Below are positions 35,797 to 55,198 of a stretch of DNA of 64,000 nucleotides, piece after piece. Position 1 is the stretch's first letter; each line of letters starts with the position of its first letter. The notes beneath the pieces are model-generated. The model was not told the DNA's origin. It saw nothing but the letters and a program-made list of their open reading frames with translations, and did not search any database. Origin of the DNA: Helianthus annuus (Eukaryota; Streptophyta; Magnoliopsida; Asterales; Asteraceae); NCBI RefSeq assembly GCF_002127325.2, contig NC_035446.2:161355878-161419877 (forward strand). The letters are read 5' to 3'. The translations under genes were made by a program, and so were the position numbers.

Positions 35797-36530
35797 ATTT
35801 CTCGATACTCGTTCTTGAAACCTTTGTCTTATTTAGTTATTTGACTAAAGATTTTGAAGCACCACTAAAATAACTTTAATCTAAAAGTAATCTCTAGATT
35901 CAAAGGTCACCCATTCAAACTTCAAACCAGAAAACACAAAACGAATTTGACATGTTTTGTCAAAATTGCCATAATACATTTATACATGCTTCAAAGTCCA
36001 ATATGAAATTTTATGGCATGTCTGGCCTTGATTAATTTAAAGGTGCAAATACTTGGATGTATTCGTATACATAATCCATTTGTCTTTTACGATGATCTTA
36101 ATTACGATCACATAATTGTCAATATAGTGGAAAAATCGCATTTTAAAAGACGCAAGTTTGTTAGGTGAGAGGTGGTATGGTATGAGGTTGATGGAGGATT
36201 TGTTCATTCAAGTTTTCTCCAACCACTTCCACTCCATACCTTAAGTGGAAGCTGGTCCCCAATCCAAACTTACCCAAATAAGGGTTTGTATTGTTCGGGT
36301 TATTCTAGCGACTTATATATTATAAAAATAAAAGAGATTTTGAATTTGGATTTTACTTTACTCCAATAACAGAATGATCCAAATATCAATCAGTTAAACT
36401 AGTTTTAGTAATTTAAATTGGATTATTAGGTTAACATGCTATCTAAATAAAGGGGGGTTATTCAAACTTCAAAGCACCCCCTTTTCCTTTTTACCTTTTT
36501 TTTAACAGCAAATTTCTTTTATTTCGGTTG
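35797..36530. other. No gene; AT-rich intergenic
   Basis: The plus ORF at 36172-36369 has no recognisable motif. No structured repeat seen. Confidence 0.45.
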
Positions 36531-36533
36531 TCT

Positions 36534-36722
36534 GTGGGACTTGAATCCAAGACATCTCACTCTTAAAGTATTTAAAAGTTTTGCCTTTGCCAATAGACCA
36601 CCACCTCATTGGTTATTTTTTTTATTCCATGTGGGACTTGAACACAAGACCTCTATCTCTCCCAAAGTGTTTAAAGACTTTGTCTTTGCTAATGGACCAC
36701 CACCCCCATTGGTTAAAATGTT
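36534..36722 (-). repeat. SINE-like tandem dimer with Pol III boxes
   Basis: Two related units of about 95 bp on the minus strand. Each has a B-box-like GTTCAAGTCC or ATTCAAGTCC (plus coordinates 36633-36643 and 36536-36546) and, about 40 nt upstream, TAGCAAAGAC or TGGCAAAGGC, similar to an A box. Each unit starts near AACCAATG and ends in an A-rich run. No tRNA fold is intact. Confidence 0.5.
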
Positions 36723-37187
36723 AAATAACATATTATATTTTCATAAATGCACAAAAATACTGTTAAATAATAACTAGATGATTCAATCAACACGTTGCCG
36801 TAGGATGTGAGGGGTGTTCGATTGTTAGCTGCTTTGTTTCCATCCTTGTGTCTTTGTAACTGGCCGAGAATTTTGAACGGTTGGTAACCGTCGACTTCAA
36901 GCCACCATCAAAGCGCAATCATGGTTGCCTTCAACTAATTATTATTCGGAACTAACAAATTATGGTGCAACCATTCGATTATCTCTGTCTTACCACCTAG
37001 TCGTTCTTGTGTTCAAAGCGTAGACTCGGACGCCAGAGATTGTGATTGCAAAAGCTAATGCACCACCACCGTTTTGTTCCCTCCGTCAAATCGATTGTAG
37101 CCACAATCAAATGACAAAGTCGTGGTTGTTGTTACTCGCTGGAAATCACAATCGTCTTACTTTGAACCGTTTAAAGTTGATTTCTAT
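36723..37187. other. No gene seen
   Basis: Mixed-composition intergenic sequence. A 16-bp word TACTTTGAACCGTTTA at 37158-37173 recurs at 43015-43030. Confidence 0.45.
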
Positions 37188-37346
37188 CTAAGGTAACGAT
37201 TCCACTTGTTTTAACATCGCTAAATATTAATATAAAATGTATGAACTAAATATTCGAATATTATATGTGTTTATAACATGTTATGAACTAGGTTAACTTT
37301 TTATAAAATGTATTACAAAATATATAATAACGAGACTCTCGTTATT

Positions 37347-38687
37347 TGTGGGAAATTCGACTAGTACAATATCGGTTACAAAAATTAAATAAACGAATAT
37401 AAAATACAATATAATTGTACCAATCTTGATTCAAAGCCAATGTCTTTGGAAAAACTTCAACCGCATCTACGAGATCAAAACTCCGCTACAAGACAAGCAA
37501 AATTGTTGACGGTTTTTGGTTGAGGCACGGGTTCAACACGCTTCCCTTAAAACAGATTCCGCGCCTCCTCTCAGACGGTCTGTCTCCCAGGGTACAACAA
37601 CCGGAACAGTATGTGTACTGCCGGAGATGACTCTCATGCCCGAGATAGCACCGGGTATAATTTGGTGTTCACACAATTAGGAAAATATGAAGTTGAGAAA
37701 AGAATAATTTAGAGAGTGCTCCTCTCTAAATTTTCAAGGAACAAAAGACCAATTTGTTGTGTCTATTTTTCTTCTTCTACACAAATGAATAAACCATATT
37801 CATTTTATAATTAGATGCATAGACTCATTCAACCCTCTTAATGGTGACATAAACAAGATCATTAATCTTGTAATTAACAAGATCATTAATCTTGTAATTA
37901 ACAAGATAATTAATCTTGTAATAAAAAAGGGTTAAACTCTAACTTAATGAATATTAAGTGGTAGTAAAAAGAAACTGCCATTCAACTTATGGCACTAGTG
38001 GAAACCGTCTAACATTAACTCTCTAGTAAGTAGACTGGTTTAACCGGTCGAACGCGCATGCAGGCGCGCCTTAGTTGAGCCTGCACTACGCTTCCGCGGA
38101 GACACACCTTCTTGCGCCACACGCTAATTGGATGCCACTATGCATACCAGGATGCCACCTGGTTATGCACCATCCATACTCGCGTGCCACTTGCAGTCTT
38201 CCCCATAGCCAATGACGTGCGCCATGAGCCATGCCAAGGCATCCGCCTACGCCACCCAAGGGTGCGCCATAAGCGGACCCGCCATGTATCTGACCATGCG
38301 CTCATGGACAAAAATACAAAGGCGGTGTGTGAAGTTCAAAGCGCACCACATTGGGCTTATAGCCCACATCACGCGCGCATATGTGCAGGTGCGATGCACC
38401 CTTTGGTCCCCACTAATGTTTGCCTTCAAGGAGTGCTCCTCCTTATATACCACTTTAAGTTTTGTCTATCCACCTATGTGGGACAAGATGACAAATCTCA
38501 ATCCATTTTTCTCATATTTGTTTGTTCCAAACATACAACTTCAAACTTCGATATCTGATTCATCTTAGCTCTATTTGGACATAGTTTGAACACAAACCCA
38601 TAAATAATTATTTATACAACACATATATAAATATTATTCATGTCCAAAATATTTAGTGAAAAACTCATTTTCACTAAATTTCCAACA
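37347..38687 (-). repeat. LTR of copia family 2, minus strand
   Basis: On the minus strand it runs from TGTTGGAAATTTAG (38687) to CCCACA (37347), 1341 bp. It is homologous in layout to the LTRs at 45771-55198: LTR start, TCCCACATAGG box, GC-rich middle, ACTCCGGCAGT/CCCTGGGA block. A purine tract (GTGGGGGAT) lies next to 38687, so this is the 3' LTR of a minus-strand element. AAGATCATTAATCTTGTAAT recurs at 37855-37925. ORFs such as 38112-38558 are fortuitous. Confidence 0.8.
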
Positions 38688-41522
38688 ATCCCCCACATGA
38701 ATGGAGATCGATGAAAACACCAAAAAAATTCCCCGATAAAACCTCGACAGTCGAGTATTGCAGGATAGGTAGGTTTTGCCTTTGAACCTTCCTTTGTGAA
38801 GCATACTTAGCCTACTAGGGTTTTGTAGACGTGATGTCCTTGAACAACCCCCCATTTGTGTAAGCGACAATATACATTCACACAATACTTTCCCTAGCCG
38901 GGCCATCCCCTCACTAGCGTGTCCTATAATGGTCATGGAGCACTTTCCTGGTTCTGCGGGAGCTCTAGGAATTATGCCCTAATTCCATTCGAAGCGACCA
39001 CACTTCTCTCCAACATAGGTGATTTCCCTTTAAATCATTAAAAGCATTATGGTTTACTATGATTTACACAAATCATAAAACCACATATTATGCTTAACCT
39101 CACAACAATGTCACTGAATATTATAGGAATGGACTAGGATGTAATTAAACACCCTTTTATAGTTTAGGGGGTATATGAAACATATACACTAGCTTATATA
39201 TAAACATATATATTAGCTACGCCCCCACAGTGACTACCCTTCGGTTCATGATTAAGTTGGCCTATTGAACCTAGATCTTGGGATCTCCAGTCAACTAGGT
39301 TAGGTTTCCCTCATGTCCCTTTTTTTTTCCATGGCTTTAGTCCCATTCCACAACCTGATCTGTTATCAACCCACTGGTTGTTGGATCCAAAATTATTTGT
39401 TGACTTCGTTAAGTCAATAACAATAATTTTTCAGTTTAGATCAGTTGTTCTAACGTGTTCTTGACATGCTAGTCACTTTTGCCTTTTAGTCGATTCATAA
39501 GACTTATAACTCGTGATCTCAACCTGGATCCAGTTATGTACCTTGTCTTTAGAATGACATGAAACTCAATTCATGGCTAGACACGTTTTCACCATGCTTT
39601 TGGTGTGTCATGACTAACATCTTACAAGATTTTGAATCTAACCAATTGGCATTCGAGTCCAATCTACTCGATTGACTCTATATAACCATTGTGTACTCCA
39701 CTTGGTCATGCTTTGCAATATATGCAAGTCACCCCCACATTTAAGTGTAATTGGATATCATCCAAATGGGGCGATGAAAGGTTCTCCCTTTCATTTCGAG
39801 TTTGATAAAACTTCTCAACTCCCATTTCCACATTCAAATGCAAGCCACCCCCACATTTAAGTGTAATTGGATAACATCCAAAAGGGGTGATGAAAGGTTC
39901 TCCCTTTCGTTTCAAGTTTGAGAAAACTTCTCAACTACCATTTCTTCATACCCTAAAGGGTTTGTTTCTTAAATGGTTCCTCCCCCCACATTGCTTGCAT
40001 TTTAATTAAGTATCCTTTAGGACTAAAAAGAGGTTATCTTTACAGTTTTGTTTTAGCACAAAATTCATTCTTGTGTCATCACATATTTTAAATGTTTAAA
40101 GTTAATTTAATCTCCGTCGAGCATATAAATTAACAAGTATTAGTCTAGCATGCTTTAGACCACAATACTTTAGCATGTGAACAGAAGATGCATCATTCTG
40201 ATTCTTCACAACCTTAAGAGATAACGCACTATCTCTTCCAAACATTCTTTTCTTAGTTTAGACACAATAATGGAATTTTATTTCACCATTCCAAAACCAT
40301 CCGTTTTATGAAGGCCTCAAAACCATAGTTAACTCCATCCATTAGGATCATAACTCGTTTGCCTTTTTATCTCCAAGGCTTCACAATTGACTTCCTAAAG
40401 ACTTAAACATAAGTCTTAATACAAGTCACTTTGATGAAAAATCTTTGTATAAAATCACTTGAGTCTTGAGATATAGCCAATTAGATTGACACTCAACAAC
40501 AAAGCATTCACGTATGCCTATAGTGATATATACATTTACATTGTTGTTTCGTTTAATACCATGTATTGGGATCTTCCAAATTGAGAACCAAGCCTCCACA
40601 TAGTTTAAACAACATTAATGGTGGTAGAAACATCTACAAGTCCATCACTATTGTAAATTTCCATTAATAAATTTTCTAAATTTATTAAAATCATTTACAA
40701 TAATAACATATATTTCTTTCATATGTTATATTCTATGAAAAACTCACATGTGCATTTCCATGTTGATGCTCTCAACATTAGATGACATATTTCGTTTTCG
40801 TGCATTTCATCTCAAACCATTCACCACGTTTCTTACGACGCCGTTATGCATTTGATGTTTGATTTGTGACTTATTACATAAGTCATGATCACAACCCGCT
40901 CGTTGTGTTTGTGTAAATTACTTTTTACACTTTGTACCAAAATGTGTATCCTTTTGACAAATTATTAGTAGTCCAAAATAAATATTTATCTTTTATTATA
41001 ATTAAACCATTTGTTTATGTTAAATAAACCCAAACGATAGTCTACCATTTATAATAAATTAAAAGTGGACAAAAATAAAACGGATACACTAAAGATATCA
41101 AAACATTAAATGCCAAAGTGTTATTATCTTCAACACTTTTGACCGAAATAAACGCAATTATTTCGTTCGGTGTCATGTTTTGAGGTACTCCCTCATCTTG
41201 GAACTCTAAACTTGAATAATCACAAGTTGTCCAAAAATATAAAGTTGTTTAAAATTAAATACTCGCAAGTAGTTAAGCAACTTATTATGTCTATAACAAC
41301 ATCGAGTTGTTTTTCACTAAATAGTCTTTTAGAGACTATTATATGGTTCAAGACGTTATACTTCTCGTGGAAGTATATCGAATCACTTATAATTCGCAAA
41401 GACATGTTTTATTCGTTCAAAACATTTCTCGTTTTACAAGTGTTTTAAAAATAAACTATATATTTATGTTTTGATTAAAAATCAAAACAATAAACCTTAT
41501 AATAGTTTATTAAATAAAACAA
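38688..41522 (-). other. Non-coding interior of a family 2-related element
   Basis: 38688-39320 matches the 3' UTR of the family 2 elements on the minus strand, including the last codons of pol near 39303-39345. Beyond that no pol sequence remains: the interior is AT-rich and non-coding, as in a large non-autonomous derivative. It contains a tandem duplication of about 120 bp at 39720-39957. Confidence 0.6.
39720..39957. repeat. Tandem duplication, unit about 120 bp
   Basis: Two consecutive copies starting CAAGTCACCCCCACATTTAA and CAAGCCACCCCCACATTTAA, about 90 percent alike by eye. Confidence 0.9.
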
Positions 41523-42885
41523 TTTCAAACTCGCTCGTTTGAAAAATAAACCGAATACACGTCGTTTTAATAGTTGGTTTATCATATTTAAACCATTTCT
41601 AACCGCTGTAGCCTGTTAGATAATAACGATTACCGATCGTTAAATTGAGTGGTTTGTATGATAACCAATTCTAATGTGCTAATTAGAATTTAAATGTTTA
41701 TCAAACATTCAAAATATTCGGTTTTTTTATAAAGTAAACCGTTACTAACGCGCTCGTTAGAAATAAAACGGATACACTTATTCTCATAAGCAAATTTTGG
41801 TTTATTTAAATGAACATTTTCTAACACGCTCGTTAGAAATAAACACAAACCTTTTCTAACATGCTCGTTAGAAAATATATAAACCGGATACAAATCATGT
41901 TAAATAATTTATCATGGTTAACCCGGTTCTAACCCGCTCGTTATAAATTAACGATTGCAAATCGTTAAAAGCTTTCTAATACGCTCGTTAGAATTAAACG
42001 ATTACAGAATTTGTTTCGAAGTTTATAAAAGTATAAACTATTTCTAATACGCTCATTAGAAATAAACAAATACGAAACCATTTTAACATTTATGTAAAAA
42101 AAACCGTTTCTAACTTAATTGTTAGAAATTTAAAGGTTCAGACGAAACCGTTACAAGGTTAATTATTATCCATAAATTGTTTCCAACTCACTTGTTAATA
42201 ATTATTTGCAACAAAAATCTTTTCTAACACACTCGTTAGAAAATCTGATCGTCTTTTAAGTAGTTCGGTTTACAAAATCATCGTATCTAACACGCTCATT
42301 AGATATAATAGATGATATTAAACCTTATTATTCTATAAAATTCTAACACACTTGTTAGAATTAAACGATCATTTATTTCCATAAGCCGTTTTTGGCATAT
42401 ATAAAATAAACGTTTTCTAACCCGCTCGTTAGAAATATTAAAAATTGCCAAAGTCGTTAAATCATTTCTAACACGCTCATTAGAAATAACTTATTACAAT
42501 TTTTGTTTTGAAGTTTATAAAAAAACTATTTCTAATACGCTCATTAGAAATAAAAAAAAAATACGAAACCATTTCAAGATTTCTTATTATCCAAAATAAT
42601 TGTTTCAAACACGCTCGTTTAACAATTATTTGTAATAATAATCTTTTCTAACATGCCCGTTAGAAAATCTAAACGTTTTTAAACTATTGTTTCTAACACG
42701 CTCGTTAGAATATCCAACCGTCTTTAAAACATTGTTCCTAACACGCTCGTTAGAACATATAGATGTTTTAAAACTTATTATTATTCAAAATAATTATTTC
42801 TAACACGCTTGTTAGAATACATTAATGTTTTAAAACTTCTAATTTTATAAAAAAAAATTACTTTCTAATACACTCATTAGAAAAT
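41523..42885. repeat. Array of about 22 hairpins, fixed 6-nt loop, covarying stems
   Basis: Consensus TTCTAACACGCTCGTTAGAA: stem of 7-10 bp around a loop that is almost always 6 nt (ACGCTC type). Copies start at about 41523, 41667, 41745, 41818, 41852, 41928, 41973, 42040, 42107, 42220, 42284, 42339, 42414, 42467, 42528, 42603, 42645, 42691, 42735, 42797 and 42862, mean spacing about 60 bp, plus decayed copies near 41592 and 42181 and an outlier at 40890. Stems vary in a paired manner (TTTCAAAC with GTTTGAAA; TATCTAA with TTAGATA; AATTCTAAT with ATTAGAATT). Spacers are AT-rich with weak recurrent words. Non-coding. Confidence 0.93.
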
Positions 42886-43031
42886 ATATGTGTTTCAAGA
42901 CATTTAAACCAATATTAATATACCAATTAAAGTTTATAACATGTTTGTAACAACAAGTGGAATCGTTACCTTAGATATTTTATATTAATATTTATATATG
43001 TGTTTAAAGTTGATTACTTTGAACCGTTTAG
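42886..43031. other. Junction between hairpin segment and truncated copia pol
   Basis: AT-rich junction containing the right 23-bp inverted repeat (42952-42974) and the word TACTTTGAACCGTTTA (43015-43030) ending right at the pol breakpoint. Confidence 0.6.
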
Positions 43032-45172
43032 TGAAAGAAATGATGAACGCCATGTTGATAAGTTCTGGGGTGAGCCACGAACTGTGGGGGGAAGCCATTC
43101 TCTCGGCTAACTATCTTTTGAACAGGATACCACTCAAAAAGAGAGACGAAACTCCATATGAGTTATGGAAAAGGAAGAAACCTTCATACAAATACTTGAA
43201 AGTGTGGGGGTGCCTAGCAAAGGTGACTGTACCACCTCCTAAGGCTCTTAGGATAGGACCCAAAACTGTTGATTGCATATTTATTGGGTATGCACATCAA
43301 AGTAGTGCACATCGCTTTCTTGTACATGAGTCCAAGAATCCTGATGTACACGTAAACACTATTATGGAGGTGAATTCTAACGTTGTGTCTTACTTTGAAA
43401 ATGTGTTTCCTTTGAGAAGACAAACACATGCAACGTCATCAACACCCAATTTTGAAGTAGGTGAAAGTTCATCTACACCAGTTGATGAGGTGGTTCATGA
43501 TAAGACACATGAACAACCTGAGGTTGAAGAAACCGATCGTAGGCGAAGTAAAAGGCCAAGGGTTGAAAAATCCTTCGGTCCAGACTTCGTTAGCTATATG
43601 GTTGAGGGCGAGCCCAATACATATCGCGAAGCGGTCTCCTCTTCAGAAGGACCTCAATGGAAAGAAGCAATAAGAAATGAAATAGATTCTATATTGCAAA
43701 ATCATACTTGGGAGTTAGTAGATCTTCCACCTGGTTGCAAACCACTTGGATATCGTTGGATATTCAAAAGGAAGATGAAAACTGATGGAAGTATTGATAA
43801 GTACAAGGCTAGGTTGGTGATTAAAGGATTTAGACAAAAGGAAGGTCTAGATTACTTTGATACCTACTCGCCTGTGACGCGCATAACCTCGATTAGATTG
43901 GTTCTTGCTATAGCGGCTTTAAGAAATTTGGAAGTTCACCAAATGGACGTTAAAACCGCATTTCTAAATGGCGATTTAGAAGAAGAAATTTACATGGAGC
44001 AACCTGAAGGTTTCTCCGCCCCAGGTCAAGAGGGTAAAGTATGTAAACTCGTCAAGTCTTTGTATGGCTTGAAGCAAGCACCAAAACAATGGCACCAAAA
44101 GTTTGATCATGTCATGATTGACAATGGTTTCAAAATAAATGAGTGCGACAAATGTGTTTACTTCAAAGACACAAATGAAGGTTATGTCATCTTATGCCTT
44201 TATGTAGACGATATGCTTATCATTGGGAGTAATGATAAAATTATCAAAGCTACTAAAAGCATGTTGAAAGCGAGATTTGACATGAAAGACATGGGTTTAG
44301 CGGATGTGATTCTTGGAGTAAAGATCATAAGAACCCAAGAAGGTCTTGTCTTAAGTCAATCTCACTATGTGGATAAAATTCTTGAAAAATTCAACTCGGG
44401 AGATACGAGTGTCGCTCGAACTCCAGTTGATACCTCCCAACATCTCAAGAAGAATAAAGGAGATGGAGTTGCTCAGTTAGAGTATTCAAGAATTATAGGT
44501 AGTCTAATGTATCTAATGACATGTACTAGACCCGACTTGGCTTACGCGGTGAGTAGGCTAAGTAGATACACCAGCAATCCGTGCGCGGATCATTGGAAGG
44601 CTATCACGAGGGTGCTTAGATACATACGATACACAAGAGACTATGGACTGCATTATACCCGACAACCAGCAGTGATCGAAGGATACACTGATGCAAACTG
44701 GATATCGGATAATAAAGATTCCAAATCAACAAGTGGTTACGTGTTTACACTTGGAGGAGCTGCTATTGCTTGGAAGTCTTCTAAGCAAACAGTCATAGCG
44801 AGATCCACAATGGAATCTGAATTTATCGCCTTGGATAAGTCAGGCGAGGAGGCGGAATGGCTACGTCAATTCGTGGAAGATATTCCAAGATGGCCAAAGC
44901 CTTTGCCAGCCATATGTGTACATTGTGATAGCCAATCAGCGATTGGTAGAGCTCAAAGCTTGATGTACAATGGCAGATCAAGGCATATGCGACGTAGACA
45001 TAACACGATACGACAACTACTCTCAACGGGTGTTATCACAATTGATTATGTGAGATCAGCGGATAACATTGCGGACCCGTTTACAAAAGGCTTAAGCAGA
45101 GAGTTAGTAGAAACGTCGTCAAGAGGAATGGGACTAAAGCCCGTGGTTAATGGGAATATGAGGGAAACCTAA
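43032..45172 (+). pseudogene. 5'-truncated copia pol (family 2, unit X)
   Basis: From 43032 the sequence matches the complete element from 50977 on, at a constant offset of 7945 bp with no indel seen. It encodes the end of integrase ([21 protein letters not shown]), RT ([16 protein letters not shown] near 44203) and RNase H (GYTDANW) to the stop at 45170-45172. Gag, protease and most of integrase are missing, replaced by the AT-rich junction. The open frame extends back to 42998 only by chance. Truncated, therefore not autonomous. Confidence 0.93.
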
Positions 45173-45770
45173 CTTAGTTGACTGGAGATCCCAAGATCTA
45201 AGTTCAATAGGACAACTTAATCATATTACCAGAACGGAGTCACTGTGGGGGAGTACCCCAAACTACATAAAAGGGAGTTACATATACTTCCTAGTCCATT
45301 CCAATCAGTGACATGAAGTGAGGTTAAGCATATTAAGGTTAATGATTTCGGGAAATCAAATAACCATGATGCTTTTAATGATTCATGGGAATCACCTATG
45401 TTAGAGAGAAGTGGGGTCGCTTCAAATGGATTTGTGGGGTGCGCAAATCCTAGAGCTCTCGCAGAACCAGGCTAGTGTTCCAGGACCATAATAGGACACG
45501 ACAATGAGGAGTTGGCCAAACCAGGGAGAGTATTGTGTGAAGTGTATTGTCGTTTACACAAATGGGGGTATGTTCAAGGACATCGCGTCTACATATCGCT
45601 AGTAAGCTAAGTGCGCTTCACAAAAGAAGGTTCAAAGGCTTCAACCTACCTATCTTGCAATACTCAACTGTCGAAGTTTATCGTTGAAAAGTGTAAGGAA
45701 AAGATCCATTTCCATACATGTGGGGGATTGTTGGAAATTTGATGAAAATAGCATTTTTCATGTGGGGGAT
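45173..45770 (+). other. 3' UTR and duplicated purine tract of unit X
   Basis: Matches 53118-53715. Ends with two copies of GTGGGGGATTGTTGGAAA (about 45722 and 45763), the second preceding the LTR start at 45771. Confidence 0.8.
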
Positions 45771-46560
45771 TGTTGGAAAATAAGTGAAAATAGCATTTTT
45801 CACAAATATAGGAAAATGATTTTTTCCTATTTTGGACTAGAAATAAATATAATAAAATGAGCGGGTTTTATGTATTTATTTGTGGGTTTGTGTTCTATGT
45901 TGGAAGAGCTTCGCAACGAACTAAACCGCGTCCAAAACCGAGCTAAGATGAATGAGATATCGATGCTCAAAGTTGGGTGTTTGGAACATTCAATGTTGAA
46001 ACTAAAGGGAAAGTAGCACCTTGTCCCACATAGGAGGAGAGATGGAACTTAAATGGGTATTTAAGGTGGAACTCTCCATCCTTATTGTTTCATGGAAGCA
46101 CACACTAGTGTCCTCGCGAAGGGTGCGGAGCACCCTAACTCGCACTCGCACTCGCACACGCTCGCGCGCGCGCGCGTGGCGTGGGCGATGAGGCGCAATG
46201 TGGCGCTTTGATGGCGCACTTTGCACTTCGCACGCTCGCATCGCCGCGAGCCGCTTGAGAGCCGCCTTTGTATTTTTGACCGCGCGCGCGTGGTGAAGCA
46301 CAAGGGTTGCAAGGACCAAGTGGTAGGTGATGCGGTGCATGACGCGGCAGTCATGCGCGCGCGGGTACACGAGGCGCGCGGTTCGGAGCATGGTGCATGG
46401 GTCCTACTGTGCCGTGTGCGGCGCACCAGAGTGAGCCAATACGGCGCGACTGTGTGGCGCGCACGTATAGACTCACAAGGTGACGTGGCGCACGCCGCAT
46501 GGACGGACTTGAGCTGCACCGCCGCACGCCGCATGGACAGACTTGAGCCGCACCGCCGCA

Positions 46561-46690
46561 CGCCGCACGGCAGTGAGCCAAGAGGCCGCACGCCGCATGG
46601 CAGTGAGCCAAGAGGCCGCACGCCGCACGACAGTGAGCCAAGAGGCCGCACGCCGCACGGCAGTGAGCCAAGAGGCCGCACGCCGCATGG
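46561..46690 (+). repeat. 30-bp minisatellite in LTR A
   Basis: Units at 46561, 46591, 46621, 46651 and a partial one at 46681, each CGCCGCACGG-CAGTGAGCCA-AGAGGCCGCA with one or two changes. Repeated in LTR B (47981-48110) and LTR C (54506-54635). Confidence 0.95.
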
Positions 46691-46878
46691 CGCACCGCGC
46701 ATGGGCGCGCGCGCGCGCAGAAGCTTCCAGCATTGAATGACAGGGCAGTTTCAGTCCAGCTTCGTAACTGACGAGTTAATAGGCTTTGACTGAGAATTAA
46801 ATGACGTATTAAATTGCATTGAAGACGTTTAATGCAATTTAAACCTCTCATTTAATTCATTTTGACTGTTTCAACCTA

Positions 46879-46900
46879 GGAGCTGTATAAATACAGCTCC
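46879..46900 (+). promoter_or_regulatory. Palindromic TATA box of the family 2 LTR
   Basis: TATAAATA (46886-46893) lies at the centre of a 22-bp near-perfect palindrome with arms GGAGCTGTAT and ATACAGCTCC. It is present in LTR B (48299-48320) and LTR C (54824-54845). Likely the core promoter of the element. Confidence 0.75.
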
Positions 46901-47202
46901 ATACCCACTTCAGAAGGAGACCAGCAACACAACAGTAATCCAAACTTTCTCTCTAGAATTTTTTTCTTGCAGCTTTCAAGGTAACCTTCGGGTTGTAGGC
47001 GAACTCCGGCAGTACTACTGCTCCGGCTGTTGTACCCTGGGAAACAAAACGAGTACTCTTGGGAGACTCGGAATTTGTTTTAAGGGAAGCGTGTGTTCAC
47101 GTGCCTCAGCCACTCTGCTTCTACTCCATTTCTTGTATTTTGGCTTATTTCAGTTGTAATAGTAATAGTATTTCAGCTTTCTTATTTCTTTGTACTGCCA
47201 AT

Positions 47203-48673
47203 AATAAGTGAAAATAGCATTTTTCACAAATATAGGAAAATGATTTTTTCCTATTTTGGACTAGAAATAAATATAATAAAATGAGCGGGTTTTATGTATT
47301 TATTTGTGGGTTTGTGTTCTATGTTGGAAGAGCTTCGCAACGAACTAAACCGCGTCCAAAACCGAGCTAAGATGAATGAGATATCGATGCTCAAAGTTGG
47401 GTGTTTGGAACATTCAATGTTGAAACTAAAGGGAAAGTAGCACCTTGTCCCACATAGGAGGAGAGATGGAACTTAAATGGGTATTTAAGGTGGAACTCTC
47501 CATCCTTATTGTTTCATGGAAGCACACACTAGTGTCCTCGCGAAGGGTGCGGAGCACCCTAACTCGCACTCGCACTCGCACACGCTCGCTCGCGCGCGCG
47601 CGCGTGGCGTGGGCGATGAGGCGCAATGTGGCGCTTTGATGGCGCACTTTGCACTTCGCATCGCCGCGAGCCGCTTGAGAGCCGCCTTTGTATTTTTGAC
47701 CGCGCGCGCGTGGTGAAGCACAAGGGTTGCAAGGACCAAGTGGTAGGTGATGCGGTGCATGACGCGGCAGTCATGCGCGCGCGGGTACACGAGGCGCGCG
47801 GTTCGGAGCATGGTGCATGGGTCCTACTGTGCCGTGTGCGGCGCACCAGAGTGAGCCAATACGGCGCGACTGTGTGGCGCGCACGTATAGACTCACAAGG
47901 TGACGTGGCGCACGCCGCATGGACGGACTTGAGCTGCACCGCCGCACGCCGCATGGACAGACTTGAGCCGCACCGCCGCACGCCGCACGGCAGTGAGCCA
48001 AGAGGCCGCACGCCGCATGGCAGTGAGCCAAGAGGCCGCACGCCGCACGACAGTGAGCCAAGAGGCCGCACGCCGCACGGCAGTGAGCCAAGAGGCCGCA
48101 CGCCGCATGGCGCACCGCGCATGGGCGCGCGCGCGCGCAGAAGCTTCCAGCATTGAATGACAGGGCAGTTTCAGTCCAGCTTCGTAACTGACGAGTTAAT
48201 AGGCTTTGACTGAGAATTAAATGACGTATTAAATTGCATTGAAGACGTTTAATGCAATTTAAACCTCTCATTTAATTCATTTTGACTGTTTCAACCTAGG
48301 AGCTGTATAAATACAGCTCCATACCCACTTCAGAAGGACACCAGCAACACAACAGTAATCCAAACTTTCTCTCTAGAATTTTTTTCTTGCAGCTTTCAAG
48401 GTAACCTTCGGGTTGTAGGCGAACTCCGGCAGTACTACTGCTCCGGCTGTTGTACCCTGGGAAACAAAACGAGTACTCTTGGGAGACTCGGAATTTGTTT
48501 TAAGGGAAGCGTGTGTTCACGTGCCTCAGCCACTCTGCTTCTACTCCATTTCTTGTATTTTGGCTTATTTCAGTTGTAATAGTAATAGTATTTCAGCTTT
48601 CTTATTTCTTTGTACTGTAATCAATTAAATAAAATTTGTTTTATTTTAATTATTTACACGAACGGTTCCTACA
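47203..48673 (+). repeat. Family 2 LTR B (5' LTR of unit Y)
   Basis: Begins at AATAAGTGAAAATAG, missing the TGTTGGAA start, joined to LTR A through the filler CCAAT (47198-47202). Ends GGTTCCTACA at 48673. Minisatellite at 47981-48110 and palindromic TATA at 48299-48320. Confidence 0.92.
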
Positions 48674-48705
48674 ATCTTAAAACAAATTTTTAAAACCGTT
48701 CGTGT
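48656..48705 (+). promoter_or_regulatory. Hairpin across the LTR/leader junction in place of a tRNA PBS
   Basis: Perfect 12-bp arms ACACGAACGGTT (48656-48667) and AACCGTTCGTGT (48694-48705) with a 26-nt loop span the LTR end at 48673. The sequence after the LTR (ATCTTAAAAC) does not begin TGG and is not a recognised PBS. A self-priming or other non-standard priming role is possible but unproven. Confidence 0.55.
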
Positions 48706-49067
48706 AATCAAAACCATTCTGTTTGTGATTCAAACCAGTTTTGATTTCACTCAGTTTGTGTTTTAAAAACAGATTTTTTTAGTTTTCATCTTCAAAGGTG
48801 CGACTTTGGTTGAAAACTATTTTTGGTTACATTCGAACTTGTCCTAAATTTGCTAAAACTTTCTGATTTGGTCTTCAAAGTTGGACTTAGAAGCCAATCA
48901 GTAAGTTCTAAAAATTATAAAATTTTCTGTTTTTGGTCTTCAAAGTTGGACTTAGAAGCCTAAACAGTAAATTTGTGGTAAAAAAATTAAAATTTAATTG
49001 TTTAATTCTGGTTTTGCGTAAATCAGAATATTTTTGACTAAACTTTTAAAATTTTAATTTTTTCAGA
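48674..49067 (+). other. Untranslated leader of unit Y
   Basis: Between LTR B and the polyprotein ATG. A word starting GGTCTTCAAAGTTGGACTTA occurs twice (about 48871 and 48936). No ORF. Confidence 0.75.
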
Positions 49068-52000
49068 ATGTCGACCTCAAACAACAACAATACGAATGTT
49101 GTAGTTGGAACCCCTGCCAACACTGTGGGAGCGTCCACTGTGGCAAATCATGCTGAAAGACCTGAGAAGTTCTCGGGTCTACACTTCAAGCGGTGGCAAC
49201 AGAAGATGTTCTTCTACTTGACCACCATGAACCTTGCGAGGTTCTTGACGGAAACCGCTCCCCAACCTGCGGAAGGGGAGACCGACGCTCAGGCTCTGAG
49301 CGCGGTAGATGCGTGGAAGCATTCGGATTTCATATGTCGAGGCTATGTACTCAACGGTCTCTCGGATGCTTTGTATAATGTGTACTATAATATCAAGACT
49401 TCCAAAGAATTGTGGGAGTCTTTGGAGAAAAAGTACAAAACGGAGGATGCGGGAACAAAGAAATTTGTTGTCGCCCGTTTCTTGGACTTCAAAATGGTTG
49501 ATAACAAGCCGGTTATGAACCAAGTCCAAGAGTTGCAAATTATACTAAATGACATCCATGCCGAGGGAATGGTACTTAGCGAGACATTTCAAGTGGCAGC
49601 CATGATTGAGAAATTACCTCCTGCTTGGTTGGATTTTAAGAATTATCTTAAACACAAGCGGAAGGAAATGTCGGTGGAGGACCTTGTTCTTCGTCTTCGT
49701 ATAGAAGAGGAGAATAGGATCGCCCTAAAAAACAGCCTTGTGCAGCCTAGTGCTAGTGCAAACGTGGTTGAGCATGGGCAATCCTCTAAAGGCACAAAGG
49801 GCAAGGGGAAAAAGGACAAAGGGAAAGGGAAAGCAAAGGCTAGCAACCTTGGACCGAAGAAAGGGGTTGTGAAAAAGAAACCTCAAACGTTCCAAGGGAC
49901 TTGTTACAACTGTGACGAGCCGGGGCATCGGGCTAACCAATGCAAGAAACCAAAGCGTGAGCGTGCGCACATGGTGAATGAAGACGGAATGCCTTTGGTG
50001 GCAATGATTTCCGACAAAAGCGCAATGATGGATGAGGTCAATACGGTGACCAATACTCCAAAAGGTTGGTGGGTTGATACGGGTGCGACCCGTCACGTTT
50101 GTGCAGACAAAAGTCTCTTTACCACCTTCAAGGCGCTTTCTGGAGAAGAGAAGCTGTATATGGGAAATGCAGCCACCGCTGACATCATGGGTGAAGGAAC
50201 GGTGATCTTGAAGTGGACTTCAGGGAAGGAGCTCACTCTAAGCAACGTGTTGTATGTCCCAGACTTGCGCAAGAATCTAGTCTCGGGATGGTTGCTTAAC
50301 AAGTTTGGATTTCGTTTAGTTTTTGAGAGCGATCAATTTGTACTAACTAAACGAGGAACGTATGTAGGCAAGGGTTATGCCCAAAATGGAATGTTCAAAT
50401 TGAATGTAATGGCTGTCAAGAACATGAATAAAATTGCTACTACTTCTACTTATATGCTTGAGTTTTCTGAATCGAATAAATGGCATGGTAGATTAGGTCA
50501 CGTAAATTTTAATTCAATACGCCGTTTAATCAATTTAAATTGTATACCAACATTCCATATTGATTCACACTATAAATGTGAAACATGCGTTGAATCCAAA
50601 CTTACAAGAACATCATCGAAATCGGTTGAACGAATAACCGAACCCCTTGATTTAATTCACACTGATATTTGTGATTTAAAAGTGGTACCCACAAGAGGTG
50701 GAAATAAGTACTTCATCACGTTTATTGACGATAGTACTAAATATTGCTATGTATATTTACTAAAAAGTAAAGATGAAGCAATAACTAAATTTATCTTGTA
50801 TAAAAATGAAGTTGAGAATCAACTTCAAAAGAAGATAAAAGCTTTGCGAAGCGATCGAGGAGGCGAATATGTTGCACCTTTTGCCGAGTTATGCGCAAAA
50901 AGTGGCATTGTACATGAGTGTACACCTCCTTACTCTCCACAATCAAATGGCGTGGCGGAACGAAAGAACCGCACATTGAAAGAAATGATGAACGCCATGT
51001 TGATAAGTTCTGGGGTGAGCCACGAACTGTGGGGGGAAGCCATTCTCTCGGCTAACTATCTTTTGAACAGGATACCACTCAAAAAGAGAGACGAAACTCC
51101 ATATGAGTTATGGAAAAGGAAGAAACCTTCATACAAATACTTGAAAGTGTGGGGGTGCCTAGCAAAGGTGACTGTACCACCTCCTAAGGCTCTTAGGATA
51201 GGACCCAAAACTGTTGATTGCATATTTATTGGGTATGCACATCAAAGTAGTGCACATCGCTTTCTTGTACATGAGTCCAAGAATCCTGATGTACACGTAA
51301 ACACTATTATGGAGGTGAATTCTAACGTTGTGTCTTACTTTGAAAATGTGTTTCCTTTGAGAAGACAAACACATGCAACGTCATCAACACCCAATTTTGA
51401 AGTAGGTGAAAGTTCATCTACACCAGTTGATGAGGTGGTTCATGATAAGACACATGAACAACCTGAGGTTGAAGAAACCGATCGTAGGCGAAGTAAAAGG
51501 CCAAGGGTTGAAAAATCCTTCGGTCCAGACTTCGTTAGCTATATGGTTGAGGGCGAGCCCAATACATATCGCGAAGCGGTCTCCTCTTCAGAAGGACCTC
51601 AATGGAAAGAAGCAATAAGAAATGAAATAGATTCTATATTGCAAAATCATACTTGGGAGTTAGTAGATCTTCCACCTGGTTGCAAACCACTTGGATATCG
51701 TTGGATATTCAAAAGGAAGATGAAAACTGATGGAAGTATTGATAAGTACAAGGCTAGGTTGGTGATTAAAGGATTTAGACAAAAGGAAGGTCTAGATTAC
51801 TTTGATACCTACTCGCCTGTGACGCGCATAACCTCGATTAGATTGGTTCTTGCTATAGCGGCTTTAAGAAATTTGGAAGTTCACCAAATGGACGTTAAAA
51901 CCGCATTTCTAAATGGCGATTTAGAAGAAGAAATTTACATGGAGCAACCTGAAGGTTTCTCCGCCCCAGGTCAAGAGGGTAAAGTATGTAAACTCGTCAA

Positions 52001-53117
52001 GTCTTTGTATGGCTTGAAGCAAGCACCAAAACAATGGCACCAAAAGTTTGATCATGTCATGATTGACAATGGTTTCAAAATAAATGAGTGCGACAAATGT
52101 GTTTACTTCAAAGACACAAATGAAGGTTATGTCATCTTATGCCTTTATGTAGACGATATGCTTATCATTGGGAGTAATGATAAAATTATCAAAGCTACTA
52201 AAAGCATGTTGAAAGCGAGATTTGACATGAAAGACATGGGTTTAGCGGATGTGATTCTTGGAGTAAAGATCATAAGAACCCAAGAAGGTCTTGTCTTAAG
52301 TCAATCTCACTATGTGGATAAAATTCTTGAAAAATTCAACTCGGGAGATACGAGTGTCGCTCGAACTCCAGTTGATACCTCCCAACATCTCAAGAAGAAT
52401 AAAGGAGATGGAGTTGCTCAGTTAGAGTATTCAAGAATTATAGGTAGTCTAATGTATCTAATGACATGTACTAGACCCGACTTGGCTTACGCGGTGAGTA
52501 GGCTAAGTAGATACACCAGCAATCCGTGCGCGGATCATTGGAAGGCTATCACGAGGGTGCTTAGATACATACGATACACAAGAGACTATGGACTGCATTA
52601 TACCCGACAACCAGCAGTGATCGAAGGATACACTGATGCAAACTGGATATCGGATAATAAAGATTCCAAATCAACAAGTGGTTACGTGTTTACACTTGGA
52701 GGAGCTGCTATTGCTTGGAAGTCTTCTAAGCAAACAGTCATAGCGAGATCCACAATGGAATCTGAATTTATCGCCTTGGATAAGTCAGGCGAGGAGGCGG
52801 AATGGCTACGTCAATTCGTGGAAGATATTCCAAGATGGCCAAAGCCTTTGCCAGCCATATGTGTACATTGTGATAGCCAATCAGCGATTGGTAGAGCTCA
52901 AAGCTTGATGTACAATGGCAGATCAAGGCATATGCGACGTAGACATAACACGATACGACAACTACTCTCAACGGGTGTTATCACAATTGATTATGTGAGA
53001 TCAGCGGATAACATTGCGGACCCGTTTACAAAAGGCTTAAGCAGAGAGTTAGTAGAAACGTCGTCAAGAGGAATGGGACTAAAGCCCGTGGTTAATGGGA
53101 ATATGAGGGAAACCTAA
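49068..53117 (+). CDS. Intact copia gag-pol polyprotein (unit Y)
   Basis: Single ORF of 1349 residues. Order: gag with UBN2 region (about 30-230; [17 protein letters not shown]), Lys/Gly-rich linker, CCHC knuckle [14 protein letters not shown] (279-292), protease DTGA (Asp 337), GAG-pre-integrase ([10 protein letters not shown]), integrase with Asp 533, Asp 596 and Glu 631, RT ([24 protein letters not shown] with Asp 1029/1030), and RNase H (GYTDANW, Asp 1190; [18 protein letters not shown]). All expected catalytic residues are present. The product makes virus-like particles, processes itself, reverse transcribes and integrates the element. The ATG lies in AGAATGTCGACC context and is the first in this frame; gag starts there. 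Lineage within copia is not resolved. Confidence 0.97.
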
Positions 53118-53715
53118 CTTAGTTGACTGGAGATCCCAAGATCTAAGTTCAATAGGACAACTTAATCATATTACCAGAACGGAGTCACTGTGGGGGAGTA
53201 CCCCAAACTACATAAAAGGGAGTTACATATACTTCCTAGTCCATTCCAATCAGTGACATGAAGTGAGGTTAAGCATATTAAGGTTAATGATTTCGGGAAA
53301 TCAAATAACCATGATGCTTTTAATGATTCATGGGAATCACCTATGTTAGAGAGAAGTGGGGTCGCTTCAAATGGATTTGTGGGGTGCGCAAATCCTAGAG
53401 CTCTCGCAGAACCAGGCTAGTGTTCCAGGACCATAATAGGACACGACAATGAGGAGTTGGCCAAACCAGGGAGAGTATTGTGTGAAGTGTATTGTCGTTT
53501 ACACAAATGGGGGTATGTTCAAGGACATCGCGTCTACATATCGCTAGTAAGCTAAGTGCGCTTCACAAAAGAAGGTTCAAAGGCTTCAACCTACCTATCT
53601 TGCAATACTCAACTGTCGAAGTTTATCGTTGAAAAGTGTAAGGAAAAGATCCATTTCCATACATGTGGGGGATTGTTGGAAATTTGATGAAAATAGCATT
53701 TTTCATGTGGGGGAT
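53118..53715 (+). other. 3' UTR and duplicated purine tract of unit Y
   Basis: Matches 45173-45770. Two copies of GTGGGGGATTGTTGGAAA near its end, the second defining the LTR C start at 53716. Confidence 0.85.
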
Positions 53716-55198
53716 TGTTGGAAAATAAGTGAAAATAGCATTTTTCACAAATATAGGAAAATGATTTTTTCCTATTTTGGACTAGAAATAAATATAATAA
53801 AATGAGCGGGTTTTATGTATTTATTTGTGGGTTTGTGTTCTATGTTGGAAGAGCTTCGCAACGAACTAAACCGCGTCCAAAACCGAGCTAAGATGAATGA
53901 GATATCGATGCTCAAAGTTGGGTGTTTGGAACATTCAATGTTGAAACTAAAGGGAAAGTAGCACCTTGTCCCACATAGGAGGAGAGATGGAACTTAAATG
54001 GGTATTTAAGGTGGAACTCTCCATCCTTATTGTTTCATGGAAGCACACACTAGTGTCCTCGCGAAGGGTGCGGAGCACCCTAACTCGCACTCGCACTCGC
54101 ACACGCTCGCGCGCGCGCGCGTGGCGTGGGCGATGAGGCGCAATGTGGCGCTTTGATGGCGCACTTTGCACTTCGCACGCTCGCATCGCCGCGAGCCGCT
54201 TGAGAGCCGCCTTTGTATTTTTGACCGCGCGCGCGTGGTGAAGCACAAGGGTTGCAAGGACCAAGTGGTAGGTGATGCGGTGCATGACGCGGCAGTCATG
54301 CGCGCGCGGGTACACGAGGCGCGCGGTTCGGAGCATGGTGCATGGGTCCTACTGTGCCGTGTGCGGCGCACCAGAGTGAGCCAATACGGCGCGACTGTGT
54401 GGCGCGCACGTATAGACTCACAAGGTGACGTGGCGCACGCCGCATGGACGGACTTGAGCTGCACCGCCGCACGCCGCATGGACAGACTTGAGCCGCACCG
54501 CCGCACGCCGCACGGCAGTGAGCCAAGAGGCCGCACGCCGCATGGCAGTGAGCCAAGAGGCCGCACGCCGCACGACAGTGAGCCAAGAGGCCGCACGCCG
54601 CACGGCAGTGAGCCAAGAGGCCGCACGCCGCATGGCGCACCGCGCATGGGCGCGCGCGCGCGCAGAAGCTTCCAGCATTGAATGACAGGGCAGTTTCAGT
54701 CCAGCTTCGTAACTGACGAGTTAATAGGCTTTGACTGAGAATTAAATGACGTATTAAATTGCATTGAAGACGTTTAATGCAATTTAAACCTCTCATTTAA
54801 TTCATTTTGACTGTTTCAACCTAGGAGCTGTATAAATACAGCTCCATACCCACTTCAGAAGGACACCAGCAACACAACAGTAATCCAAACTTTCTCTCTA
54901 GAATTTTTTTCTTGCAGCTTTCAAGGTAACCTTCGGGTTGTAGGCGAACTCCGGCAGTACTACTGCTCCGGCTGTTGTACCCTGGGAAACAAAACGAGTA
55001 CTCTTGGGAGACTCGGAATTTGTTTTAAGGGAAGCGTGTGTTCACGTGCCTCAGCCACTCTGCTTCTACTCCATTTCTTGTATTTTGGCTTATTTCAGTT
55101 GTAATAGTAATAGTATTTCAGCTTTCTTATTTCTTTGTACTGTAATCAATTAAATAAAATTTGTTTTATTTTAATTATTTACACGAACGGTTCCTACA
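53716..55198 (+). repeat. Family 2 LTR C (3' LTR of unit Y)
   Basis: Full-length LTR, 1483 bp, TGTTGG...CCTACA. Over the shared 1427 bp it matches LTR A with no indel and at least one substitution (near 46919 in A). Minisatellite at 54506-54635 and palindromic TATA at 54824-54845. Host sequence resumes at 55199. Confidence 0.95.

Follow-up and report, generated by a model that had tools for sequence, protein, structure and literature searches.

Reiterated NNGCGN-loop hairpins in a protein-less LTR retrotransposon of sunflower: a candidate packaging code in common with coding copia elements

Close inspection of a 64,000-nucleotide stretch of the Helianthus annuus genome (contig NC_035446.2; hereafter the window) revealed an array of short hairpins that recurs in many places in the genome. 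Judged by its sequence features, the host of this array is a dispersed, non-autonomous, LARD-like LTR retrotransposon of copia type, 7.4-7.5 kb long, which we named E. The genome itself documents the element, its sense strand, the cis signals that it has in common with a coding copia lineage, a strand-specific loop, covariation of the stems and lineage constraint on the hairpins of subfamilies A and B. From these comparisons we consider it very probable that the array consists of a sense-strand RNA hairpin motif common to E and the coding lineage. We lean, with less assurance, towards the whole chain of events in which this hairpin would be bound in the sense RNA by the Gag of the coding element, would serve as a packaging site, and would have been amplified in E. 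The most specific form of the proposal is put forward tentatively: the hairpin with a 6-nt NNGCGN loop may be the Gag recognition code of the copia lineage, multiplied by the parasite to about 23-27 copies as a competitive packaging array.

The genomic context of the array provided the first insights into its nature. Used as a query, positions 41523-42885 of the window matched at least 39 other places in the genome with 82-98% identity, counting the best candidates only. The flanks of 16 other copies (L009-L024) revealed that the array is embedded in an LTR retrotransposon. Complete copies (L009, L010, and L016) displayed 1.4-kb LTRs around about 4.6 kb of internal sequence, with 5-bp TSDs (CAATG, AAAGA, and GTTAA, respectively). 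The LTR pairs of these copies are nearly identical (99.7%, 99.9%, and 98.4%, in the same order), which marks the insertions as young. The LTR ends read TGTTGG...CCTACA, with TGTTAG at the start of the 5′ LTR of L009. A DNA foldback satellite had been among the readings offered by a first-pass annotation of the window. This candidate was rejected because the array is an internal part of dispersed LTR elements with TSDs, unlike the head-to-tail genomic arrays of satellites or foldback elements with terminal inverted repeats and no LTR. An association of the array with the neighbouring family-2 copia element, also raised at that stage, did not survive comparison either: none of the 16 compared copies runs into that copia fragment, and past the position equivalent to 42950 they continue for about 0.4 kb more and then enter their own LTR. 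The family-2 copia is nevertheless the relative that matters here.

The copy of E in the window lies on the minus strand. Its 3′ LTR, in sense orientation, occupies 37279..38687, starting with TGTTGG at 38687 and ending at an approximate outer limit of 37279; this sequence is repeated at both ends of L009, L010, and L016. Adjoining the LTR is a polypurine tract, CATGTGGGGGAT (38688..38699, minus strand), which is identical in the copia element of the window. In a self-comparison of the window, the 3′ region of E (38688..39349, minus strand), beside the LTR at 38687, aligned in inverted orientation, at about 80-85% similarity, with the terminal part of the copia ORF and the 3′ UTR that follows it. 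In addition, the LTR end together with the primer-site region, CCTACA|ATCTTAAAACA, is common to E and the window copia. The inverted similarity to the copia 3′ end and the positions of the polypurine tract and primer site indicate that the sense strand of E is the minus strand of the window and that the array lies in the 5′ leader, where it begins about 315 nt after the LTR. The window copy is incomplete. Its match to other copies ends at 42950 and a copia pol fragment begins at 43032, so that the breakpoint falls within 42950..43032; the 5′ LTR, the primer site, and the first hairpin of E were lost there.

No coding capacity was apparent in E. The longest open frame in L009, L010, L016, and L025 spans 181 codons, a tblastn search of the copia ORF against the E of L010 gave a best E-value of 0.62, and a tRNA scan of L010 returned none. 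Internal regions were cut from 17 copies, of which 16 were aligned (L019 was dropped by length, and L014 and L024 are shorter), revealing a large non-coding internal domain that is conserved across copies. This domain also contains a tandem repeat of 116 bp (window 39722-39944), whose units carry the polypurine-tract-like AATGTGGGGGTGGC.

The array spans 41523..42885 on the minus strand and comprises 22 units with the sense form TTTCTAAC-GAGCGT-GTTAGAAA. The 20-nt cores of units 1-11 start at 41524, 41669, 41743, 41819, 41854, 41927, 41974, 42042, 42108, 42181, and 42222, and those of units 12-22 at 42285, 42341, 42415, 42466, 42530, 42604, 42646, 42691, 42736, 42798, and 42863. These were kept from 31 candidate sites, nine having been discarded as off-register or poorly paired. 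A stricter hairpin scan also returned 22 hairpins in the window, namely 21 of the kept units (the weak unit at 42181 was missed) and a weak site at 42934-42953, beyond the end of the array. In that scan, the distance between units ranges from 35 to 145 nt and is mostly 42-76 nt. We counted 17 perfect hairpins combining a 6-nt loop with a stem of 6 bp or longer; in 200 dinucleotide shuffles, 1.3 were expected and no shuffle gave more than 5. At loop positions 3-5, the 22 units carry GCG in 14 cases, GTG in four, and GCA in three; the remaining loop is AATTAA. The first-pass annotation had described about 22 hairpins with 6-nt loops in this region, and both the number and the compensated pairs of arms that it listed were found in the sequence. 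Likewise present is the longer hairpin that it had placed around 42592-42627 (42592..42627, minus strand), in which outer arms AATAATTGTT and AACAATTATT enclose a GAGCGT-loop hairpin. Its description of stems drifting from 5 to 10 bp can be refined, in that the conserved stem measures 8 bp and outer pairing is near chance; the fixed 6-nt loop stands, bar an additional unit near 41597-41619 with a loop of 11 nt. In complete E copies, an additional good hairpin is present on the side that the window copy lost.

Local RNA folding of the array was assessed on the E copy L010, yielding a mean z of -3.2, against -0.25 in window positions 1-32000. The z values are equal for both strands, hence the strand of the RNA cannot be read from folding energy, and a folding-energy strand bias was dropped as a line of evidence. 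E as a whole displayed a mean folding z of -2.0 and the copia ORF -1.35, compared with the same -0.25, an effect present on both strands in E and in the ORF. A search of window positions 36000-46000 with 4227 Rfam models returned no matches at an E-value of 1 or below.

The stems of the array covary. Among the 22 window units (21 distinct), eight cells were changed on both sides of a pair, compared with 1.9 ± 1.2 after shuffling, and none of 500 shuffles reached the observed count. The covariation score of these units was 0.219, against at most 0.067 with slid partners. The covariation check on these units thus gave a signal above both the shuffled and the slid controls. A scan of 23 E arrays gathered 487 sites (308 distinct 50-mers), including a few strays (one each in L023, L024, and L025, far from the array) and, in nine arrays, the weak site found at 42934-42953 in the window, whose stem is unlike the others. 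Across the 23 arrays, Watson-Crick pairs made up 73-98% at stem positions 1-8 and fell to about chance further out. Sense-strand G-U cells exceeded A-C cells at stem positions 1-6 (56 vs 13), and the reverse held at positions 7-8 (14 vs 21). We set this excess aside as proof of RNA pairing, since CpG decay at the loop-closing pair could be the source of part of it and positions 7-8 point the opposite way. Exact copies of TTCTAACNNGCTCGTTAGAA occur 928 times in the genome and those of a reversed control not once; all 13 places taken from these matches (L025-L037) carried E.

The coding relative in the window provided a second setting for the same type of loop. Its gag-pol ORF (49068..53117, plus strand) is intact and encodes 1349 amino acids with a CCHC zinc knuckle in Gag. 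The window copia and E have in common the primer site, the polypurine tract, and the LTR ends, and the proposed pairing of E with this copia as its helper draws only on these signals. The copia primer-site region, ATCTTAAAACA, is found at 48673..48683 (plus strand) and is identical in E. The usual copia primer site is that for initiator Met-tRNA, from which ATCTTAAAACA differs. This region (window 48655-48705, and L010) is enclosed by a long stem whose sequence differs by element, ACACGAACGGTT/AACCGTTCGTGT and GTGAACCTA/TAGGTTCAC in the two elements.

The copia leader folds far more stably than its shuffles (z = -7.5) and contains the hairpin CAAAG-GTGCGA-CTTTG (H1). H1 to H4 and the LTR hairpin described next are on the plus strand. 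H1 (CTTCAAAG-GTGCGA-CTTTGGTT, 48790..48811) is followed by H2 (49006..49028), which reads TTCTGGTTT-TTGCGT-AAATCAGAA in relatives and has one T missing here. Two more lie within gag: H3 (49121..49142, codons TVGASTV) reads CACTGTGG-GAGCGT-CCACTGTG with one pair broken here, and H4 (49226..49247) reads GAACC-TTGCGA-GGTTC. A hairpin of the copia LTR, ATAAAAT-GAGCGG-GTTTTAT, is situated at 47276..47295 and again in the 3′ LTR at 53797-53816. A different hairpin, GGTCTTCAAAGTTGGACTTAGAAGCC, is present twice in the leader, at 48860-48970, and does not vary among the 18 aligned leaders. As for the surroundings of the element, 43032-47197 duplicates 50977-55142 at 99.98% identity, and there are three stretches of copia LTR sequence, beginning at about 45767, 47203, and 53724; copia copies are thus chained in window 43032-55198, probably through unequal recombination. 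The copia LTRs also contain GC-rich minisatellites of 30 and 34 bp (46489-46691, 47909-48111, and 54434-54636).

These leader hairpins recur in other coding-lineage elements. Among 17 close copies (L038-L054), picked for lower identity from 40 matches, the second loop base of H1 was A in 10, T in six, and G in one, often giving GAGCGA, and one outer pair of the stem varied between A-U, U-A, G-C, and G-U. A broader sample was drawn without the hairpin as a criterion, through the pattern formed by the LTR end and primer site, which has 527 exact matches in the genome. From the first 38 of 100 listed matches we took 20 places, skipping 14 at known E arrays, three belonging to the family of the window copia, and one very near a place already sampled; together with the window copia these formed a set of 21 leaders. 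Not all sampled places are intact coding elements, as the start of gag is disrupted in several and was not located in some others. H1 with a loop NNGCGA was present in 17 of the 21 leaders, 117-134 nt after the LTR. H2 was likewise present in 17, at 253-343 nt (92 in L067), on two unrelated stems, TTCTGGTTT/AAATCAGAA and AATAATAAA/TTTATTATT, with loops such as TTGCGT, TAGCGT, and TAGCAC. H3, just inside gag, was found in 18 leaders, with the loop GAGCGT in all of them but L059. H3 overlaps seven fourfold-degenerate gag codons, none of which displayed a synonymous variant shared by at least two of 15 leaders, compared with five of the next 11 codons. H3 and H4 lie within codons, and protein conservation contributes there.

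The loop is specific both in register and in strand. The sense strand of the 21 leaders contains 80 GCG trinucleotides, of which 44 occupy positions 3-5 of a 6-nt loop (stems of at least 5 bp) and none occupies positions 1-3, 2-4, or 4-6; the leaders are related, so that the 44 cases are not independent and represent about five independent hairpins (H1, two H2 forms, H3, and H4). On the antisense strand, none of the 29 GCG fell at any of these loop offsets. With stems of at least 6 bp, 30 of the 80 sense GCG were at loop positions 3-5; by this share, GCG ranked first among trinucleotides (37.5%), ahead of GCA (8.1%) and the next (3.4%). GCG was also centred in 4-nt loops 11 times, in 8-nt loops 31 times, and in loops of 5 and 7 nt twice each; we take most of the 4-nt and 8-nt cases to be these hairpins with one base pair opened or added. 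Individual leaders carried one to four GCG-loop hairpins in 19 of 21 cases, compared with 0.004-0.033 per shuffled leader; L059 and L070 had none, L059 displaying the variants GAGTGA and GAGCAT. In control positions 1-33000 of the window, 0 of 162 and 0 of 167 GCG were at loop positions 3-5, and three were at other loop offsets, on the minus strand. Within the copia stretch 49251-53700, one of 45 GCG on the sense strand and one of 31 on the antisense strand lay at positions 3-5 of such a loop.

A covariance model, R1, was built exclusively from coding-lineage hairpins, with none from E. It used 22 of 29 distinct hairpins; of the other seven, four had aberrant loops, one had a mismatched closing pair, and two nearly duplicated H4. 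The coding-lineage set covaries as well, although loop and pairing were themselves the criteria by which its members were selected. Applied to the window, whose own copia contributed two of the training hairpins, R1 matched, among the array units, that at 41523-41544 best (E-value 0.0036). Of its 40 window matches at an E-value of 10 or below, the array accounts for 15, each of them in sense orientation. Most single units score weakly (E-values of 0.1-7), as expected at 22 nt.

Hairpins with this loop were also found in E downstream of the array, all on the minus strand of the window. One at 40216..40237, AAGAGATA-GTGCGT-TATCTCTT, is present in L010 as well as L018, L021, and L025, and matches R1 with 12.4 bits (E-value 3.1). 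Another at 40890..40907, CACAAC-GAGCGG-GTTGTG, presents an array-type loop on another stem; its core has 105 exact matches in the genome, compared with none for a reversed control. The hairpin at 41144..41165, CGAAATAA-TTGCGT-TTATTTCG, is listed for L018, not for L021 or L025, and that at 41255..41276 reads TTAACTAC-TTGCGA-GTAGTTAA in L010 and has one stem base changed in the window copy. Outside the array, the internal region of L010 has seven GCG on the sense strand, four of them at positions 3-5 of a 6-nt loop, and five on the antisense strand, none of them so placed; the four loops (TTGCGA, TTGCGT, GAGCGG, and GTGCGT) sit on four unrelated stems. In the LTR of L010, no GCG lay in such a loop (0/29 sense, 0/19 antisense), while weaker GCG loops fall within LTR sequence in L018 and L025. 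Altogether, one loop type occurs on some ten unrelated stems (the array, four more in E, and five in the leaders), and both the leaders and the internal region of E carry it in sense orientation. Considered together, the perfect hairpins elsewhere in E show few compensated changes and are not clearly maintained by compensation.

The evolution of the array across E copies was also analysed. Sampled copies contained from 7 to 25 units per array in our scan, a variation that we read as unit loss and rearrangement. Constraint was assessed by comparing changes seen in one copy only with those seen in three or more copies. Subfamilies A and B, represented by 17 copies, gave counts of 43 and 11 in stems, 28 and 9 in loops, and 148 and 117 in spacers (stem plus loop vs spacer, P = 1.6e-4). 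A second alignment was derived from the 17 internal regions, with L019 dropped by length and L025 kept apart, leaving 15 A and B copies with labels taken from one copy. It gave 41 and 17 for stems, 21 and 13 for loops, and 81 and 88 for spacers, with P = 0.0035 for stems and 0.003 for stem plus loop; loops alone did not differ significantly from spacers in this alignment (P = 0.19). Hairpins of the A and B subfamilies thus changed more slowly than spacers in the source lineage and drifted in single copies. In the nine copies of subfamily C, no constraint signal was detected (62 and 9 vs 180 and 34 in spacers, P = 0.57). The non-coding region after the array changed even less than the array stems (250 and 61), so that lineage constraint is not special to the hairpins. 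In that region (about 39350-41500), L025 is about 5% diverged from the other copies while its LTRs differ by about 21%, a contrast that could be due to either constraint or recombination.

Of the readings offered by the first-pass annotation, that of a structured RNA array gains support from the covarying stems, the sense-only loop on unrelated stems, and the slower evolution of A and B hairpins, which does not extend to C. On this reading, each unit consists of a stem of about 8 bp, exchangeable as long as it stays paired, that presents a 6-nt NNGCGN loop, mostly GAGCGT. Loops of this type, on unrelated stems and 0-4 per sampled leader, occur from the primer site to the beginning of gag in the coding copia elements that have their primer site, polypurine tract, and LTR ends in common with E. 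We prefer protein binding at the level of RNA. Covariation in the stems and the strand preference of the loop make the alternative of an array bound as DNA less likely. In that scenario, the units would be palindromic sites for a host transcription factor or an anti-silencing protein, similar to the motif arrays of some DNA transposons. The half-sites of the core are indeed strongly conserved in sequence, and repeated short motifs in the non-coding parts of transposons can be protein targets. Yet stems were swapped for unrelated paired sequences while the loop type stayed, compensated changes are not expected of independent half-sites, and the loop is confined to the sense strand (44/80 vs 0/29 GCG in leaders, 4/7 vs 0/5 GCG in E outside the array), all of which makes a DNA site improbable. 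Slightly more doubtful still is an array without function, in which tandem duplication and hairpin template switching during reverse transcription would keep the palindromes. Reverse transcription is prone to template switching, unit number and spacing vary among copies, and E is hairpin-rich overall. Nevertheless, such a process predicts neither that different elements would present one loop type on unrelated stems nor that A and B hairpins would accumulate fewer lineage changes than spacers, and no flipped loops occurred among the array units listed. Because a palindromic DNA site would not depend on one strand and template switching would not preserve a single loop type across unrelated stems, the unit is best viewed as an RNA hairpin whose loop is read.

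Retroviral packaging signals occupy the leader from the primer site to where gag begins, and known psi signals consist of a few distinct stem-loops with exposed G-containing loops. The copia hairpins display the same position and a conserved sense-strand RNA structure, in an element whose Gag carries a CCHC knuckle; they differ in that a single type of loop recurs on many stems. Given this position, the use of the hairpin by coding and protein-less elements with the same ends, and the zinc knuckle, binding by Gag and packaging appear the most likely role. A protein encoded by the copia partner, in all likelihood Gag through its zinc knuckle, would then bind the loop, and the hairpin would act as a psi-like packaging site. 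With about 23 copies, E may bind more Gag and thereby compete for the particles of its partner. A rather unlikely alternative, though one to be taken seriously, is that the same RNA motif is recognised by a host RNA-binding protein, or serves to control the translation, stability, or nuclear export of the transcripts. This alternative accounts equally well for everything that points to a sense-strand RNA motif. Since E makes no protein, a role in export, stability, or escape from silencing is possible in E, and such hairpins also occur downstream of its array. On the other hand, coding elements concentrate the motif between the primer site and gag start, as packaging predicts, with just one of the 45 sense GCG of copia 49251-53700 in such a loop, and a host-factor role alone leaves the use in common with a coding relative unexplained. 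By far less probable is an array serving as a source of small RNAs or as a silencing decoy. Stems of 8 bp are short for Dicer-like processing, and loop conservation would be unexplained. This scenario draws on the correlation of hairpin-like structures in maize genes and transposons with small RNAs, as reported in parts of PMC10760457.

Packaging by Gag, the reading that we favour, can be placed next to known systems. E displays TG..CA LTRs, TSDs, a primer site, a polypurine tract, a conserved internal domain, and no gag or pol coding capacity, as is characteristic of LARDs (large retrotransposon derivatives), which were described in barley and are discussed in passages of PMC7215508. According to these passages, LARDs have LTRs and a large conserved internal region without coding capacity, as E does, trans-mobilisation is assumed for them, and a conserved RNA structure is claimed. 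A reiterated hairpin array with a loop shared with the partner, as present in E, is not described in those passages of PMC7215508. The relationship also resembles in its logic that of BARE2 and BARE1 in barley, as far as described in sections of PMC3735527: BARE2 is a copia-type element without its own Gag that is packaged into BARE1 particles, and conserved dimerization and packaging signals are mentioned. E has its primer site and polypurine tract in common with a Gag-encoding candidate partner and lacks Gag, and its packaging signal would be the hairpin. The differences are that the remainder of the BARE2 ORF may still be translated, whereas E has no coding sequence and an approximately 23-fold hairpin, and that packaging was measured for BARE2 (PMC3735527) and is proposed from sequence for E. 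Tandem repeats in the internal regions of plant LTR elements are known, including those of Retand (parts of PMC11963269 and PMC7004042). The repeats named there for Retand lie between pol and the 3′ LTR, whereas the array of E lies in the 5′ leader and, unlike those plant LTR repeats, is made of hairpin units with unlike spacers and a conserved loop (PMC11963269). In the titles and abstract beginnings of the open-licence literature, we found neither a reiterated hairpin array in the leader of an LTR retrotransposon nor this loop, and a term search for "hairpin" returned none in the available parts of PMC7730604 and PMC8704663. Non-autonomous LTR elements and packaging stem-loops are known; the new aspect, for which no precedent was found in the open-licence literature, is a reiterated hairpin code common to helper and parasite.

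These findings have implications for the understanding of mobile elements in plants. How protein-less LTR retrotransposons enter the particles of their partners is a long-standing question, and to our knowledge, the RNA code of plant copia elements is hardly known. Here, sequence alone yields a candidate code, namely a short, strand-specific, repeated loop common to a coding lineage and its protein-less relative. If the proposal is true, the array would be a compact, reiterated packaging element through which mobile elements compete by dosage. It would also be an arms-race trait, written as an array of hairpins, by which E out-titrates its coding partner. In that case, screening other genomes for hairpins with GCG at loop positions 3-5 could bring further pairs of this kind to light.
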